The notes under the pieces were generated by a model. It did no database searches. It was not told the origin of the DNA and saw nothing but the letters and a program-made list of their open reading frames with translations. Made by a program: the position numbers and the translations under genes. This document shows positions 37,621-48,885 of a stretch of DNA of 49,179 nt, piece after piece (within the stretch, counting starts at the first letter, position 1; every line of letters starts with the position of its first letter). Location of the stretch: the IMG/VR virus record IMGVR_UViG_3300042879_002693, positions 1 through 49,179 of that record; one strand, written 5' to 3'. This DNA is from a virus.

Positions 37621-38673
37621 ATGATCTCAAATTATTTTTATCACGAAATATTGAGAAAGACCATAGTATCTTTCGGTACACTTTTTAATGATATTAAAAT
37701 CAAACATAAAGATAACGCAGGAGATGATTTTAGTATCTTAACTGTACCTATTGCATATGGACCGGTGCAGAAATTTTTAGCTAGAATTGAACAAGTACCA
37801 GATTTAAAAAAAAGAGTTGCTATTACTTTACCAAGAATGTCATTTGAAATGACAGGTATTCAATATGATTCCAGTAGAAAGTCTTCCACAATGCAGACTT
37901 TTAGGACTTTGGATAAAACAAATAATAATGAAATGACTAAAGTTTTTATGCCTGTCCCTTATAATGTAAATATTAGACTTTCAATTATGTCTAAACTAAA
38001 TGAGGATGCATTGCAAATTGTAGAACAAATTTTGCCTTATTTTCAACCTCATTTTAATTTGACAGTCGATCTCGTATCAACTATTGGAGAAAAAAGAGAT
38101 ATTCCAATGATTTTGGAAAGAATTTCCATGGATGATCAATATGAAGGAGATTTTACTAGTAGAAGAGTTTTGATTTATACTTTAGATTTTGTTACTAAAA
38201 CATATCTATTTGGTCCAGCGGGAAATGGTAATGAGGCTATGATTAAACAAGTACAAGTTGATTATTATGCAGATACAAATAGAGTCAATGCTTCTAGACA
38301 ACTCAGATATGTTGCGGAACCAAGAGCACTAAAAGATTATAATAATGATGAAATTACGATAATTGCTGAGGATATTGCAGAAGAAATTTCTCAATTTGAT
38401 GTTTCCGATTCCACTGGATTGACACCAAATTCATATATTCAGGTTAATGATGAATCCATGTATATTCGTCAAATCACAGGAAATACTTTATTAGTTAACA
38501 GGGGTCAAAATAATACGAATATTGCATCACATATGGTTGGAACTGCAGTTAACGTAATTAATTCTGATGATGATGAATTAATTGATCTGGATGATGACTT
38601 TGGATTCAGTGAAAGTCGTTATGATTTTGGTGATGGTAAAATTTATAGTACTACAAAAGGTATTGATGTATGA
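37621..38673 (+). CDS. 15: Proximal tail sheath stabilisation / tail terminator protein gp15
   Basis: gp15 forms the hexameric cap on the finished tail and is the site where the head's neck joins. The product is 350 residues (T4: 272). The segment IVEQILPYFQPHFN is identical to T4 gp15, and the N-terminus NYFYHEILRKTIVSFGTLFN parallels T4 GYFYNSSFRRYATLMGDLFS. After residue 245 there is an extension with SYIQVNDESMYIRQITGNTL, then LVNRGQNNT and HMVGTAV, a small module also seen in other phage structural proteins, followed by an acidic tail. The ribosome binding site is weak. The gp16 start overlaps the stop by 4 bases (ATGA), so the two genes are translationally coupled. Confidence 0.95.
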   Translation: MISNYFYHEILRKTIVSFGTLFNDIKIKHKDNAGDDFSILTVPIAYGPVQKFLARIEQVPDLKKRVAITLPRMSFEMTGIQYDSSRKSSTMQTFRTLDKTNNNEMTKVFMPVPYNVNIRLSIMSKLNEDALQIVEQILPYFQPHFNLTVDLVSTIGEKRDIPMILERISMDDQYEGDFTSRRVLIYTLDFVTKTYLFGPAGNGNEAMIKQVQVDYYADTNRVNASRQLRYVAEPRALKDYNNDEITIIAEDIAEEISQFDVSDSTGLTPNSYIQVNDESMYIRQITGNTLLVNRGQNNTNIASHMVGTAVNVINSDDDELIDLDDDFGFSESRYDFGDGKIYSTTKGIDV

Positions 38674-39098
38674 GTTTTGAAGACATTGATAAAGCTTTAG
38701 ATATTGAGACTACTCCAATTAAATCTGAAATTGTTAAATCAGAACCTACTACAATTAAATCTATAGAATCTCTAGATCAACTTCAGAAAGATTATGAGTA
38801 TTCTAGAGGTCAACTTTATTCAATTATTGAAAAAGGTCAAGAGGCAATTAATGGCATTCTAGAACTTGCACAAGAATCTGATTCACCAAGAGCATATGAG
38901 GTTGCTGGGCAACTGATTAAAAATGTCGGAGATGTTACGGATAAACTTTTGGATCTCCAAAAGAAGATGAAAGATATTAATCAGGAACAAAAAGGATCTG
39001 CACCAACTAATGTTACTAACAATGCTGTATTTTTGGGATCTACTGCAGAACTTCAAAAGTTCTTGAAGAGTTCCATGAATCCAGATCTATCTAAATAA
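38670..39098 (+). CDS. 16: Small terminase subunit gp16
   Basis: gp16 is the small terminase that recognises DNA and regulates the gp17 packaging motor; it assembles into rings. The 142-residue product (T4: 164) has the family pattern: a variable acidic N-terminus, a central helical pair (DQLQKDYEYSRGQLYSIIEK, then GQEAINGILELAQES, and AYEVAGQLIKNVGDVTDKLL) suited to coiled-coil oligomerisation, and a C-terminal NNAVFLGSTAELQKFLK segment. The ATG overlaps the gp15 stop. In T4 gene 17 follows directly; here a mosaic gene and a small ORF are inserted between the two terminase genes. Confidence 0.93.
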   Translation: MSFEDIDKALDIETTPIKSEIVKSEPTTIKSIESLDQLQKDYEYSRGQLYSIIEKGQEAINGILELAQESDSPRAYEVAGQLIKNVGDVTDKLLDLQKKMKDINQEQKGSAPTNVTNNAVFLGSTAELQKFLKSSMNPDLSK

Positions 39099-39121: not shown

Positions 39122-40672
39122 ATGGATAAACTCACCTTTAAAGAGTGGTCTATTCTCGCAGACCTAGAAACTATTTCACCTCTTGGAGAAGATTTTGAGT
39201 TCTCAATGGCTCGCGGAGAACTTAAAACTGCACAAGCTGCAATCACCAGATTGATGACTAAACTCAAAGGTGAAGGTGATTTAGAAGCATGGGTACAATC
39301 AAAGATTACAAAAGCTGCAGAGTATCTTGATACAGTAGCTGATCATCTCTCTCATGGAGAAGATGATACCGAAAGAAAGAAAGAAGTTAAAGAAGGTTTC
39401 AAAGGTCATAAATCAGTAGAAGAAATCGCAAAAAAGCATAAAGTATCTCCATCAATCATCCAAAAACAACTTGAGATGGGGATGAAGGTTGAACATGAAC
39501 ATACTACAGATAATGATGAAGCAATGGATATTGCATTGCAACATTTAGATGAAATTCCCAATTATTACTCCAAACTCAAAAAGATGGAGAAAGTAAAGGA
39601 AGAATGGACAGAACTTCATGACGCAAATGGTAATACTTTTGCACATGTTGTTGACATCATTAAAGGTAGTGATTATAAGTTCAAAAGTTTCACTCAACCA
39701 ATCAATGAAGATGCCGTTGAAGAACTTGAAAGTAGATTAAAGAAATTAGACGATACTTCTTATGATTCTATTGACAAACTAATGCGTAGTATCATGAAAG
39801 AACATGATATGACTGCAAAAGAACTTCATAATGCATTTGTTAAAAAACACGATAAAACACCTGATGAATGGATTAAAGATTTGAAAGAGGAAAAAAGAGG
39901 ATTGTGGGCTAATATCCATGCAAAAAGAAAACGTGGAGAAAGGCCGGCAAAACCCGGAGAAAAAGGATATCCAAAAACTTTAGATATTGAAGAAGATTTA
40001 AAACAAGCACGTAAGAATGTTGGTGCATCTAAGTGTTGGGCCGGTAAAAAAGTAGGCAATCCTCCAACTAAGATGAAAGGAGGTAAAGAAGTTCCAAATT
40101 GCGTTCCGGTATCAGAAGAGTCGGAACAAATGAGATATTGCCCAAAGTGCAAAAAGAATGAAACTGCAAAAGAGTGCAGATATGGTGAAGCTTATTGGAA
40201 GATGTTTTCACTTCCACCTTCATTAGCTCCAGATCCTTATGACCCAAATGATATTCATCCCGCAAATGAGGGAGTAAGTTTTGAAATTGGTTCTGATCAT
40301 AAAAAGGCACAAAAACAAGCAAAGATTAGAAATCTTGCAACAGGAACAAGTAATCCGAATGAAAAGGCTGCGGCTTTGAGAAAACTTTCTGGTCCTTCTC
40401 TACCTCTTGCAGATTCAGTAATCCAACCTGGACAAATTACAAATGAGGACTATCAAAGGATACAATCCACTGGTAATGTTTATACTATACTCTTCTCTTG
40501 GAGAGGTAGACCGATGATGAATCTTCAACTTTTCTTCCCAAATATGAAGAGACCCTCAAAAGATGAAGTAAAAGCGCAAATTGAAAAGTTTTATCCAGGT
40601 GCAGTTATACTGCAGTGGTATCCAAGCCCTACCGATCCATCCAAACCAATCGTAGTTATTCAAGGTAAGTAA
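39122..40672 (+). CDS. Mosaic DUF5661-type protein inserted between terminase genes
   Basis: A 516-residue protein assembled from short modules. They are: FKEW at the N-terminus; ARGELKTAQAAITRL and DLEAWVQSKITKAAEYLDTV (nt about 39203-39361); a DUF5661-like block with a helix-turn-helix-like EEIAKKHKVSPSIIQKQ and then ALQHLDEIPNYYSKLKKME (about 39385-39606); a basic RGLWANIHAKRKRGERPAKP segment (about 39895); CWAGKKVG and GGKEVPNCVP (about 40030-40112); a possible zinc knuckle CPKCKKNETAKEC (about 40137); and an unrecognised beta/alpha C-terminus ending VVIQGK. I know several of these short modules from capsid-associated and unknown proteins of marine phages. No enzyme motif is visible. Its place beside gp16 and gp17 suggests a head-related or packaging-related role, which is inferred. 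Confidence 0.75.
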   Translation: MDKLTFKEWSILADLETISPLGEDFEFSMARGELKTAQAAITRLMTKLKGEGDLEAWVQSKITKAAEYLDTVADHLSHGEDDTERKKEVKEGFKGHKSVEEIAKKHKVSPSIIQKQLEMGMKVEHEHTTDNDEAMDIALQHLDEIPNYYSKLKKMEKVKEEWTELHDANGNTFAHVVDIIKGSDYKFKSFTQPINEDAVEELESRLKKLDDTSYDSIDKLMRSIMKEHDMTAKELHNAFVKKHDKTPDEWIKDLKEEKRGLWANIHAKRKRGERPAKPGEKGYPKTLDIEEDLKQARKNVGASKCWAGKKVGNPPTKMKGGKEVPNCVPVSEESEQMRYCPKCKKNETAKECRYGEAYWKMFSLPPSLAPDPYDPNDIHPANEGVSFEIGSDHKKAQKQAKIRNLATGTSNPNEKAAALRKLSGPSLPLADSVIQPGQITNEDYQRIQSTGNVYTILFSWRGRPMMNLQLFFPNMKRPSKDEVKAQIEKFYPGAVILQWYPSPTDPSKPIVVIQGK

Positions 40673-40673
40673 A

Positions 40674-40850
40674 ATGAATGTAGACCCTTCTGAAATTGTA
40701 CTTGATGATATTAATAAGATGTTGATTTATGAACAACAATCGAGGGTTATAGATAAGTTAGATAGAGAAGAAGCAATAGAGTTTGCAAAAGCTTATTTTA
40801 AACTTTATCTCAAACAACAAGAAGTCGTATCAAGTTTAGCGAAGTTTTAA
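40674..40850 (+). CDS. Small helical protein upstream of gp17 (58 aa)
   Basis: An ATG one base after the preceding TAA opens a 58-codon frame ending in TAA at 40848-40850, three bases before the gp17 ATG. The product begins MNVDPSEIVLDDINKMLIYE and ends VSSLAKF. It is highly charged, with predicted amphipathic helices (DKLDREEAIEFAKAYFKLYL) and no cysteine or membrane segment. GGTAAG in the end of the upstream gene may serve as ribosome binding site. Its exact fit between two genes and its clean start and stop support a real gene. I do not recognise the family. A gp17 partner or packaging accessory is one possibility from position only. Confidence 0.65.
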   Translation: MNVDPSEIVLDDINKMLIYEQQSRVIDKLDREEAIEFAKAYFKLYLKQQEVVSSLAKF

Positions 40851-40853
40851 TTT

Positions 40854-42503
40854 ATGAGTGATCAGGTCTATCTCGGCAACCCGAACCTTAAAAAGGCTAA
40901 TGTACCAGTAGAATTTACACAGGAACAAATTCTTGAGTTCATCAAGTGCAAGAATGATCCTGTGTATTTTGCTAAAAATTATATCAAGATTGTTTCTCTT
41001 GATCATGGCGAGATTCCCTTTAAGATGTATCCTTTTCAGGAAAAATTAATCAATAATTTCCACGAAAATAGATTTAATATTTGTAGGATGCCTCGTCAGA
41101 CAGGTAAATCTACAACTTGTGTTTCATATTTGTTACATTATGCGGTCTTTAATGATAATGTAAACATAGCTATTCTAGCCAACAAGGCGTCCACTGCACA
41201 GGATCTACTCAGTAGATTACAATTTGCATATGAGAAACTACCAAAGTGGATGCAACAAGGTATTGTATCATGGAATAAAAGGTCATTAGAACTAGAAAAT
41301 GGTTCCAAAATTATCGCAGCGTCTACTTCTGCATCTGCTGTCCGAGGCGGATCTTATAATGTCATCTTTTTGGACGAATTCGCGTTCATCCCGAATCACA
41401 TTGCTGATGAATTCTTTGCCTCTGTTTATCCTACTATTTCGTCAGGTCAAAGCACAAAAGTCCTGATTGTTTCTACCCCAAAGGGTATGAATCACTTCTA
41501 CCGTATCTGGCACGATGCGGAGAGGGGTAAGAATGAGTATATTCCAACTGATGTTCATTGGTCTGAGGTTCCTGGAAGAGATGAAAAGTGGAAGGCCCAG
41601 ACAATCGCAAACACATCCGAACAACAGTTCAAGGTTGAGTTTGAGTGCGAATTCTTAGGATCTGTTGATACTCTCGTATCTGCAGCAAAACTCAGATCCT
41701 TAGTATATGATGATCCGATTAAATCCAATGCAGGTTTAGACATCTATGAAGAACCTCAAAAAGATCATAATTATGTTTTAACAGTAGATGTAGCTCGTGG
41801 TGTAGAAAAAGATTACTCCGCATTTACTATTTGCGATACAACATCATTTCCATATCGTCTTGTAGCAAAATACAGAGATAATCAAATAAAACCTATGTTG
41901 TTTCCAAGTGTTATTAAAGATCTTGCGGTCGCTTACAATAAGGCATACATTCTAGTAGAAGTTAATGATATTGGAGAACAGGTAGGACAAATACTCCATA
42001 TGGATTTGGAATATGATAATGTCCTTATGTGTACAATGAGAGGTCGTGCAGGTCAACTGGTTGGACAGGGATTTTCTGGAAAAAAATCTCAGATGGGAGT
42101 CAAGATGTCCAAGAATGTAAAAAAGATTGGATGTATGAATCTTAAAACATTAATTGAAAGTGATAAGTTAGTAATTAACGACTACGATACTATAAGTGAA
42201 TTGACCACTTTTATCCAAAAATCAAATTCATTTGAAGCTGAAGATGGTTGCAATGATGACCTTGCAATGTGTCTAGTAATTTTTGCGTGGTTAATTGCAC
42301 AACCATACTTTAAAGAAATGACGGACAATGATGTTCGTAAAAGATTATATGAAGAACAAAGAAATCAGATAGAACAAGACATGGCTCCATTTGGTTTTAT
42401 TTCTGATGGTTTGGGTGGGGGTGAAAGTTTTGTAGATGAAGATGGAGATCGCTGGCATATTGACGAGTATGGAGATAGATCATTTATGTGGGATTATCAA
42501 TAA
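40854..42503 (+). CDS. 17: Large terminase subunit gp17 (ATPase-nuclease)
   Basis: This is the DNA-packaging motor: it hydrolyses ATP to pump DNA through the portal and cuts the concatemer with an RNase H-fold nuclease. The product is 549 residues (T4: 610). Walker A is PRQTGKST (residues 80-87), Walker B is VIFLDEF (170-176), and the coupling motif STPKGMNHFY follows. The nuclease domain shows TVDVARG with Asp312, then VEVNDIGEQVGQ with Glu369, then the GCNDDLAM Asp468/Asp469 pair, matching the family's acidic triad. The ATG lies three bases after the 58-residue gene and has a weak ribosome binding site, consistent with coupled translation. Its stop overlaps the next ATG. Confidence 0.97.
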   Translation: MSDQVYLGNPNLKKANVPVEFTQEQILEFIKCKNDPVYFAKNYIKIVSLDHGEIPFKMYPFQEKLINNFHENRFNICRMPRQTGKSTTCVSYLLHYAVFNDNVNIAILANKASTAQDLLSRLQFAYEKLPKWMQQGIVSWNKRSLELENGSKIIAASTSASAVRGGSYNVIFLDEFAFIPNHIADEFFASVYPTISSGQSTKVLIVSTPKGMNHFYRIWHDAERGKNEYIPTDVHWSEVPGRDEKWKAQTIANTSEQQFKVEFECEFLGSVDTLVSAAKLRSLVYDDPIKSNAGLDIYEEPQKDHNYVLTVDVARGVEKDYSAFTICDTTSFPYRLVAKYRDNQIKPMLFPSVIKDLAVAYNKAYILVEVNDIGEQVGQILHMDLEYDNVLMCTMRGRAGQLVGQGFSGKKSQMGVKMSKNVKKIGCMNLKTLIESDKLVINDYDTISELTTFIQKSNSFEAEDGCNDDLAMCLVIFAWLIAQPYFKEMTDNDVRKRLYEEQRNQIEQDMAPFGFISDGLGGGESFVDEDGDRWHIDEYGDRSFMWDYQ

Positions 42504-42733
42504 TGGACATAGATAATCAATTTGAATTAGAACATTTATTTCTTACTGAAAGAAAGTGTAGAGTTTGTGGGGAAATTAAAGATCTTATAGATGGGTTTTA
42601 TTTGACCCGTAAAGGTAGAGGTGACATAGCTTCAGCGTACTCATATGAATGTAAAATTTGTACTATACAGAGAATAAAAACAACAAGAGGAAAGAAAAAA
42701 TATTCTGAAAAGTGGATATATCCAGACTGGTAG
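42503..42733 (+). CDS. Small CxxC...CxxC zinc-binding-type protein
   Basis: A 76-residue protein starting MDIDNQFELEHLFLTERKCR. CRVC (Cys19, Cys22) and CKIC (Cys50, Cys53) form a four-cysteine arrangement typical of a small zinc ribbon, followed by a basic segment (RIKTTRGKKKYSEKW) that could bind nucleic acid. The pattern resembles zinc-finger portions of phage HNH-type proteins, but I see no HNH catalytic histidines. I chose the ATG at 42503, which overlaps the gp17 stop (TAATG), over the in-frame GTG at 42488. Position after gp17 suggests packaging or late regulation, but this is only inference. Confidence 0.7.
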   Translation: MDIDNQFELEHLFLTERKCRVCGEIKDLIDGFYLTRKGRGDIASAYSYECKICTIQRIKTTRGKKKYSEKWIYPDW

Positions 42734-47745: not shown

Positions 47746-47928
47746 ATGGATGATCTTATTGACATGATGGTTTCTAACGAATCTCCTGCAGATGTTAGTG
47801 ACCGAATTAAAGAAATTCTCATGCAAAAATCTGCAGAAAATATTGATATTATTAGACCGGTTGTAGCAGCTTCAATGTTTGGTGAACAAGAAGTTGAAGA
47901 AGAACCTATTGAAGAAGACGCAGAATAA
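47746..47928 (+). CDS. 67: Prohead core protein gp67
   Basis: gp67 is a small acidic component of the T4 prohead scaffold core, cleaved by gp21 during maturation. The 60-residue product (T4: 80) has the same layout: a helical N-terminus (MDDLIDMMVSNESPADVSDR), a middle ENIDIIRPVVAASMFG, and an acidic Glu/Asp tail. Identity is low, as is usual for this short protein, and the assignment rests mainly on position right after gp20 and on composition. The tail is shorter than in T4. Confidence 0.8.
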   Translation: MDDLIDMMVSNESPADVSDRIKEILMQKSAENIDIIRPVVAASMFGEQEVEEEPIEEDAE

Positions 47929-48234: not shown

Positions 48235-48885
48235 ATGAAACTAATCACCGAAGAAGTAACGAATGTAAAGATTATCACTGAAGGAAAAGGTGCTAATAAA
48301 AAGCTTTACATTGAAGGAGTATTCCTTCAAGGCGAAATCAAGAATCGTAATGGAAGAATGTATCCAATCACAACTCTTGCTCGTGAAGTAGATCGTTATA
48401 ACGAAAACTTTGTTGCAAAAGGTCGTGCTCTTGGAGAACTCGGACATCCTGATGGTCCTACAGTTAATCTTGACCGTGTTTCTCACAAAATTACTTCTCT
48501 TGTTCAAGAGGGAAATAATTTCAGAGGTAAAGCACAAATTCTTAATACCCCCATGGGCAAGATTGCATCTTCTCTTCTCGATGAAGGTGTAATGCTTGGA
48601 GTTTCTTCTCGTGGTGTTGGTTCACTCCAAACAACTAGCGAAGGTCATAAAGTAGTTGGTGAAGATTTTATGCTTGCAACTGCTGCTGATATCGTTGCCG
48701 ATCCTTCTGCTCCAGATGCTTTTGTTTCTGGAATTATGGAAGGTAAAGAGTGGGTTTGGGACGGAGGAATTCTTCGTGAACAACTTGCTTCCAAAACTCA
48801 GAAGAGAATTAACACTCTTGTTGATCAGAGAAGACTTGACGAACAGAAATTAAATCTGTTTCAAGAGTTTCTATCAAATCTTTAA
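48235..48885 (+). CDS. 21: Prohead core protease gp21
   Basis: gp21 is the serine protease (T4 prohead protease family, herpesvirus assemblin-like fold) that cleaves the scaffold and capsid proteins before DNA packaging and then digests itself. The product is 216 residues (T4: 212). The N-terminal KLYIEGVFLQGEIKNRNGRM followed by YP is typical. His71 in LGELGHPDGP and Ser124/Ser125 in GVSSRGVG fit the catalytic positions. DFMLATAADIVADPSAPDAF is a conserved-looking C-terminal segment. The ribosome binding site is weak, suggesting coupling to the gene five bases upstream. A perfect late promoter follows the stop. Confidence 0.95.
   Translation: MKLITEEVTNVKIITEGKGANKKLYIEGVFLQGEIKNRNGRMYPITTLAREVDRYNENFVAKGRALGELGHPDGPTVNLDRVSHKITSLVQEGNNFRGKAQILNTPMGKIASSLLDEGVMLGVSSRGVGSLQTTSEGHKVVGEDFMLATAADIVADPSAPDAFVSGIMEGKEWVWDGGILREQLASKTQKRINTLVDQRRLDEQKLNLFQEFLSNL

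Follow-up and report, generated by a model that had tools for sequence, protein, structure and literature searches.

The locus and its question

Few viruses of the ocean are as abundant as T4-like cyanophages, and the hotspot between their terminase genes gp16 and gp17 has so far yielded mostly hypothetical proteins. What kind of protein is encoded there, and where in the virus does it act? The window, meaning the whole 49,179-base virus record analysed here, has T4-like Synechococcus phages as its relatives, with S-SCSM2R as the best match (78% identity over 40% of the queried 13.8 kb). Its structural genes run in the order gp13/14, gp15, gp16, a 516-residue ORF, a 58-residue ORF, gp17, gp18, gp19, gp20, gp21 and the start of a gp22-like scaffold gene, those without a Pfam match being named from their position and from neighbouring isolates. 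An earlier note on this DNA had placed two extra proteins between the terminase subunits, and the ORFs at 39122..40672 and 40674..40850 indeed lie between gp16 (38670..39098; PF11053, E=3e-12; phrog_445) and gp17 (40854..42503; PF03237, PF17289); these genes, the modules listed below and gp21 are on the + strand. The gene for the prohead protease gp21, our proposed processing enzyme (48235..48885; PF03420 Peptidase_S77, E=3e-36), follows ~8 kb downstream of the 516-residue mosaic gene.

The 58-residue ORF is NblA-like (phrog_27081): S-SCSM2R_118, annotated as NblA, occupies the same place, and an NblA-annotated protein elsewhere in S-SCSM1 is also similar. NblA functions in phycobilisome degradation. 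In addition, an 81-residue endonuclease VII-like ORF (phrog_4723; 42488-42733) overlaps the end of gp17, with similar genes after gp17 in several isolates, and a 60-residue ORF with an acidic tail (47746-47928) lies between gp20 and gp21, the region of T4 gp67/gp68.

The gp16-gp17 interval has already been reported as a variable hotspot (PMC3037559). Several modules of the window protein also occur in the gp16-gp17 proteins of S-SCSM2R, DSL-LC02, S-SRM01, S-SM2, S-SCSM1, DSL-LC03 and S-CREM2, and the S-SM2 counterpart is labelled T4-GC119.

Nine modules in one reading frame

We read the gene at 39122..40672 as one for a putative polyprotein of internal head mini-proteins, from its ORF, module HMMs, relatives and purifying selection. 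It reads through nine modules, named B to J here, in a single frame. A CTS-like (capsid-targeting) N-terminus (MDKLTFKEWSILADLETISPLGE; 39122..39190, residues 1-23) has an LGE site at its end. Module B (AWVQSKITKA; 39191..39394, residues 24-91, module match 21-82) ends in VKE, as does module C (39395..39601, residues 92-160), which is DUF5661 (PF18905; match 100-157, E=3e-13). Module D (DANGNTFAHVVD; 39602..39709, residues 161-196, match 158-196) ends in INE, and the helical module E (39710..39889, residues 197-256, match 194-256; phrog_10346, E=2e-25) in LKE. Module F (RGLWANIHAKRKRG; RGLWANIH; pI ~10; 39890..39994, residues 257-291, match 254-296) closes with IEE, module G (KCWxG..GGKEVPNCVP; 39995..40117, residues 292-332, match 296-333) with VSE, and module H (CPKC...C, a possible zinc knuckle; 40118..40270, residues 333-383, match 336-370) with ANE. 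Module I (KIRNLATGTSNPNEK; 40271..40429, residues 384-436, match 385-433) and module J, a C-terminal alpha-beta-beta-alpha-beta domain (40430..40669, residues 437-516, match 442-513), complete the chain. The earlier note had described a mosaic of short modules, and each one that it named (AWVQSKITKA, DUF5661, RGLWANIH, CWxG...NCVP, CPKC...C) was located and has HMM matches in other loci; its list missed D, E, I and the C-terminal J.

DUF5661 scores 50.3 bits against a Pfam gathering cut-off of 27, and a weak IF2_N/helix-turn-helix-like match overlaps it. DUF6321 (PF19846) has no Pfam match in the window protein and is above the gathering cut-off in relatives; NCBIfam returned nothing usable. 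To our knowledge, the names T4-GC119, DUF5661 and DUF6321 carry no function. F, G, I and J are the only clearly basic modules; B, C, D and E are acidic. In module H, C340, C343, C352 and H379 are nearly invariant, which makes the CPKC..C motif a possible zinc site with H379 as a candidate fourth ligand.

Compared with its relatives, the 516-residue gene has a dN/dS of ~0.02-0.05. Because each module's HMM matches other loci and purifying selection is this strong, the modules are not a product of chance, and the same selection argues that the mosaics are working proteins. The full-length structure model is poor (pLDDT 52.9, pTM 0.22), with small islands of moderate confidence for C (helical), E, H and J, low-confidence linkers between them, and no metal in the model. 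Modelled alone, J reaches a pLDDT of 79 with the alpha-beta-beta-alpha-beta arrangement; it has no fold match in the PDB at E<=0.001, and its ten named matches at that threshold in a viral structure library are all cyanophage proteins. A sequence search for a solved homologue gave no credible one.

Modules are exchanged between loci, and some stand alone in other phages

The modules move. The AWVQSKITKA module lies close to the N-terminus of the window protein, whereas pairwise comparison places it at 315-377, 340-414 or 160-219 in isolates. Among 71 IMG/VR loci, the differences between close relatives are entire modules, gained or lost; for example, the window string is B-C-D-E-F-G-H-I-J, another locus (L009) has B-C-D-M-K-L-H-I-J, and a third (L018) lacks C and I. 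A scan for module K, whose first loci overlap the 71-locus set, gave 54 module orders among 78 module-bearing ORFs, some of them partial (e.g. KBLMN, HKMBLJN, POBKLMN). The window modules are real, separable and permuted, with more than 50 orders seen. A single continuous domain family of fixed architecture, which the earlier note had named as the finding that would speak against its idea, is ruled out by these permuted orders. RGLWANIH (F) and CWxG (G) are usually adjacent, and we considered them as one domain; P-TIM40_184 has them in the opposite order, which rules this out and makes them separate modules. In one locus (L058:5995-7759) the mosaic gene is split into several frames, by sequencing error or decay.

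Some modules are genes of their own in T7-like marine phages, namely pelagiphage HTVC168P, cyanophages S-SBP1 and S-B28, and an uncultured phage. There, module F is a gene of 49-51 residues and module I one of 71-77 residues, with I free-standing in S-B28 and uvMED S28-C3, and a DUF6321-like module, assigned by eye, is a gene of ~81-86 residues (a longer ORF in S-B28). Various sets of these genes are placed next to each other in the interval from the scaffold gene to the major capsid gene. F, I and the DUF6321-like module are thus able to occur as free mini-proteins in the neighbourhood of capsid genes. In addition, module C sits inside a DUF2213 protein of Vibrio phage VPs20; we take DUF2213 to be prohead-protease-like, and count this in favour of a polyprotein.

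These positions bear on whether the protein assists the packaging motor, with DNA-binding modules working together with gp16 and gp17, as the gene's place between the two in T4-like cyanophages might suggest. However, related module proteins are encoded away from the terminase, following a cytidylyltransferase gene at a second locus; the T7-like module genes lie near the scaffold gene and likewise away from the terminase; and several modules are acidic. We regard a motor role as very improbable.

A protease-type motif at the module junctions

T4 gp21 cuts after L/I-x-E (PMC9026906), and a site of this kind is kept in the major capsid protein (SFLTE/A in T4 and SFLAE/A in S-SCSM1; here and below a slash marks the site). 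We asked how often such a motif falls between modules, using 148 linkers of 43 junction types, taken between HMM-defined module cores, and a null in which letters were shuffled within linkers. [LIVM]xE is present in 71% of the junction types against 34+-7% after shuffling (0/2000), and [LIVMA]xE in 88% against 42+-7%. Because junction types share ends, we regrouped them by left or right module, and the [LIVM]xE fraction was 0.74-0.75 against 0.35 (1/2000). The result was replicated with the same core models on linkers absent from the first set (67% against 32+-7%; 0/2000), and the density of [LIVM]xE per 100 residues is 4.9 in linkers against 0.76 in module cores. At the same junctions the mirror motif shows no enrichment (43% against 34% shuffled), and neither do [LIVM]xD and [LIVM]xK. 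The [LIV]xE at the junctions would be a cut site for a prohead protease of the gp21 type.

Two features of the window protein count against a polyprotein. Of its 16 [LIVMA]xE matches, 8 are at junctions and 8 inside modules, so accessibility would have to select the cut sites, and the I-J junction is without [LIVM]xE. The protein might instead be packaged in the head and stay intact, as a beads-on-a-string internal or ejection protein whose [LIV]xE linkers are only tolerant of recombination. The virion mass spectrometry of relatives described below fits this, as does the model, in which linkers of low confidence connect folded islands. However, the enrichment is specific to hydrophobic-x-Glu, gp21 is encoded in the window, and some modules are separate genes elsewhere, and we hold an uncut chain to be unlikely.

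Capsid-targeting N-termini

T4 IPII and IPIII start with MKTYQEFIAE/A. In the T4 CTS, residues 4 and 7 serve targeting, and residues 8 and 10 serve cutting (PMC9026906). A strict CTS pattern has 64 N-terminal matches in our loci, against 0/9,113 at internal methionines. It is found on J-type genes adjoining the mosaic gene (MKSFNQFLSE/S), on 51-residue O-module genes (MKTFKQFQE/EWSNKYKK), on CKLJ, KLJ and BKJ mosaics (such as MKTFSQFLLE/A), and on small genes directly upstream of mosaics (MKSFKEFCAE/A). In relatives, the J-related domain is a separate, CTS-bearing gene beside the mosaic gene. The extra upstream genes of the MKSFKEFCAE/A type encode ~130-150 residues (L052:5523-5993, L016:4329-4790, L032:5577-5996 and others); unlike these relatives, the window has no extra CTS gene upstream of the mosaic.

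The start of the window lineage, MDKLTFKEW, fails the strict pattern, which counts against a polyprotein, as does the absence of a CTS-like start in 37 of 101 mosaic ORFs. Its F6/W9 spacing, however, equals the Y4/F7 spacing of T4 IPIII, and both aromatic positions are kept in LTFKEW. Starts such as MKSFQDW, MKKFTDW and MARRTFKEW..LKE/S are intermediate between the strict and the W form, and the W-form pattern matches 92 starts, many of them from close relatives, against 0 internal methionines. Because the intermediates bridge the two forms and the W form is only N-terminal, the window start is likely a CTS variant. The LGE site at residue 23 would end a propeptide, and with gp21 in the genome the window protein carries the gp21 site by which T4-type internal head proteins are recognised. 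The earlier note had suggested interchangeable capsid-targeting tags. Part of this stands: short modules do recombine, and the protein has a link to the capsid. Targeting, however, most likely resides in the short N-terminus, and the modules look like cargo, likely with protease-type sites between them.

Internal CTS motifs at junctions are not significantly enriched and occur as single cases only. A CTS-like stretch with its start methionine lies inside the mosaic in three loci (MKTFNTFFEGKKDACY in L161:973-1911 and L165:5968-6906; MSFQDFMNEGKKCWKG in L163:5962-6738), and these stretches look like remnants of fused internal-protein genes.

T4-like CTS starts are also seen on cytidylyltransferase/NMNAT enzymes (MKSFLQFLKE/A, MRFLDFIKE/A and MRFRQFIIE/A; L080:38819-40048, L090:1488-2561, L174:1067-2155), and the enzymes of S-SCSM1 and S-SZBM1 have been seen in virions by mass spectrometry. 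Directly downstream of this cyanophage gene is a second mosaic locus with F/G modules (L085:1694-3010, L087:2551-3456, L090:2596-3963, L174:2183-3556).

Relatives of the protein in virions

The earlier note had proposed virion proteomics as a check, and module-bearing relatives have been found in virions by mass spectrometry in S-SCSM1, S-CREM2 and S-SZBM1. S-SCSM1_29, with the modules P-K-D-L-M-H-J-N, is labelled a virion protein in its record; the S-SCSM1 paper gives 45 virion proteins by mass spectrometry, and we counted 48 such labels in the record. S-CREM2 ORF137 consists of E-J-N modules and was found with only 4 peptides and 4.1% coverage, which counts against a polyprotein, and its neighbour ORF136, with the start MQTFSMFFSE/D, was found with 8 peptides (PMC10665884). 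S-SZBM1_139, which contains a module homologous to G, adjoins the cytidylyltransferase with the start MRFRQFIIE/A and was found with 4 peptides (PMC9146016). The S-SM1 module K/L gene is annotated as hypothetical despite mass spectrometry of S-SM1 virions, which also counts against a polyprotein. Contamination is a possible source of proteins detected in CsCl-purified virions; the authors of the S-CREM2 study say so for enzymes. Scanned with 16 modules, the whole S-SCSM1 genome has clear matches only in ORF29 and ORF30, too few for virion-enrichment statistics. The window phage is uncultured, and from this evidence in relatives we consider it very likely that the module family is associated with virions.

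Low peptide coverage in S-CREM2 would also suit a prohead core (scaffold) component like gp22 or gp67, recruited and cut by gp21 and then mostly expelled, with pieces that have no later role; T4 gp22 and gp67 are themselves cut into several fragments (PMC9026906). A disposable scaffold, however, would need neither conserved mini-domains with Cys motifs under strong purifying selection nor modules that are stand-alone genes, and we consider this scaffold role quite unlikely.

A proposed polyprotein of internal head mini-proteins

We think it rather likely that the window protein is a polyprotein of internal head mini-proteins, targeted by a CTS and processed by gp21, because its modules are permuted, their junctions carry [LIVM]xE, gp21 is in the window, relatives bear a CTS, some modules exist as separate genes, and relatives are seen in virions by mass spectrometry. 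Judged by its signals, the 516-residue protein probably enters the virus head and is cleaved there. Its short N-terminus would act like the CTS of a T4 internal protein and bring the chain into the prohead core, where gp21 would cut after [L/I/V]xE between modules. This would leave about nine small pieces of roughly 4-9 kDa inside the head, which would remain with the DNA and possibly be injected. More speculatively, marine T4-like and T7-like phages may share a pool of exchangeable, head-carried and injected mini-proteins, made as separate genes in T7-like phages and as a self-targeting, protease-cut polyprotein in T4-like cyanophages, yielding an early host-takeover or anti-defence cocktail; we hold this broader idea only tentatively.

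If the polyprotein reading is true, the gp16-gp17 hotspot is an internal-protein island, and a CTS plus [LIV]xE is a sequence rule by which the head cargo of these phages can be found. It would also help account for NMNAT/cytidylyltransferase enzymes with CTS-like starts in virions, and would give an example of a phage polyprotein whose parts are common to unrelated phages. The hotspot was known before; the module anatomy was not found described in the literature, and with incomplete journal coverage its novelty is provisional.

Comparison with known systems

The closest parallels are the T4 internal proteins IPI, IPII and IPIII, together with Alt, which share with this family a near-identical CTS on related genes (MKSYNEFISE/S against MKTYQEFIAE/A in T4), gp21, virion association and fast gene turnover. 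However, each T4 protein has a gene of its own and is cut behind its CTS (Alt also C-terminally), whereas here many modules are fused with the motif at most junctions, and the window CTS is a TFKEW variant. The T4 prohead core proteins gp22 and gp67 likewise have multiple predicted gp21 sites per chain, but family searches give no sequence similarity to them, and the window modules are conserved mini-domains, some of them reused as separate genes. The inner-body and ejection proteins of phiKZ and SPN3US likewise belong to the head, and a gp21-type protease processes them at short x-x-E motifs; there, cutting mostly removes an N-terminal propeptide (13/14 SPN3US sites), and they have not been described as assembled from exchangeable modules. 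Among the T4-GC119, DUF5661 and DUF6321 families, the window protein has DUF5661 and is without DUF6321. No gp21-type protease is known to us from T7-like phages. Their small genes between scaffold and capsid (HTVC168P gp30-31, S-SBP1 gp27-28 and those of S-B28) carry the F, I and DUF6321 modules, as separate genes rather than as parts of one chain.
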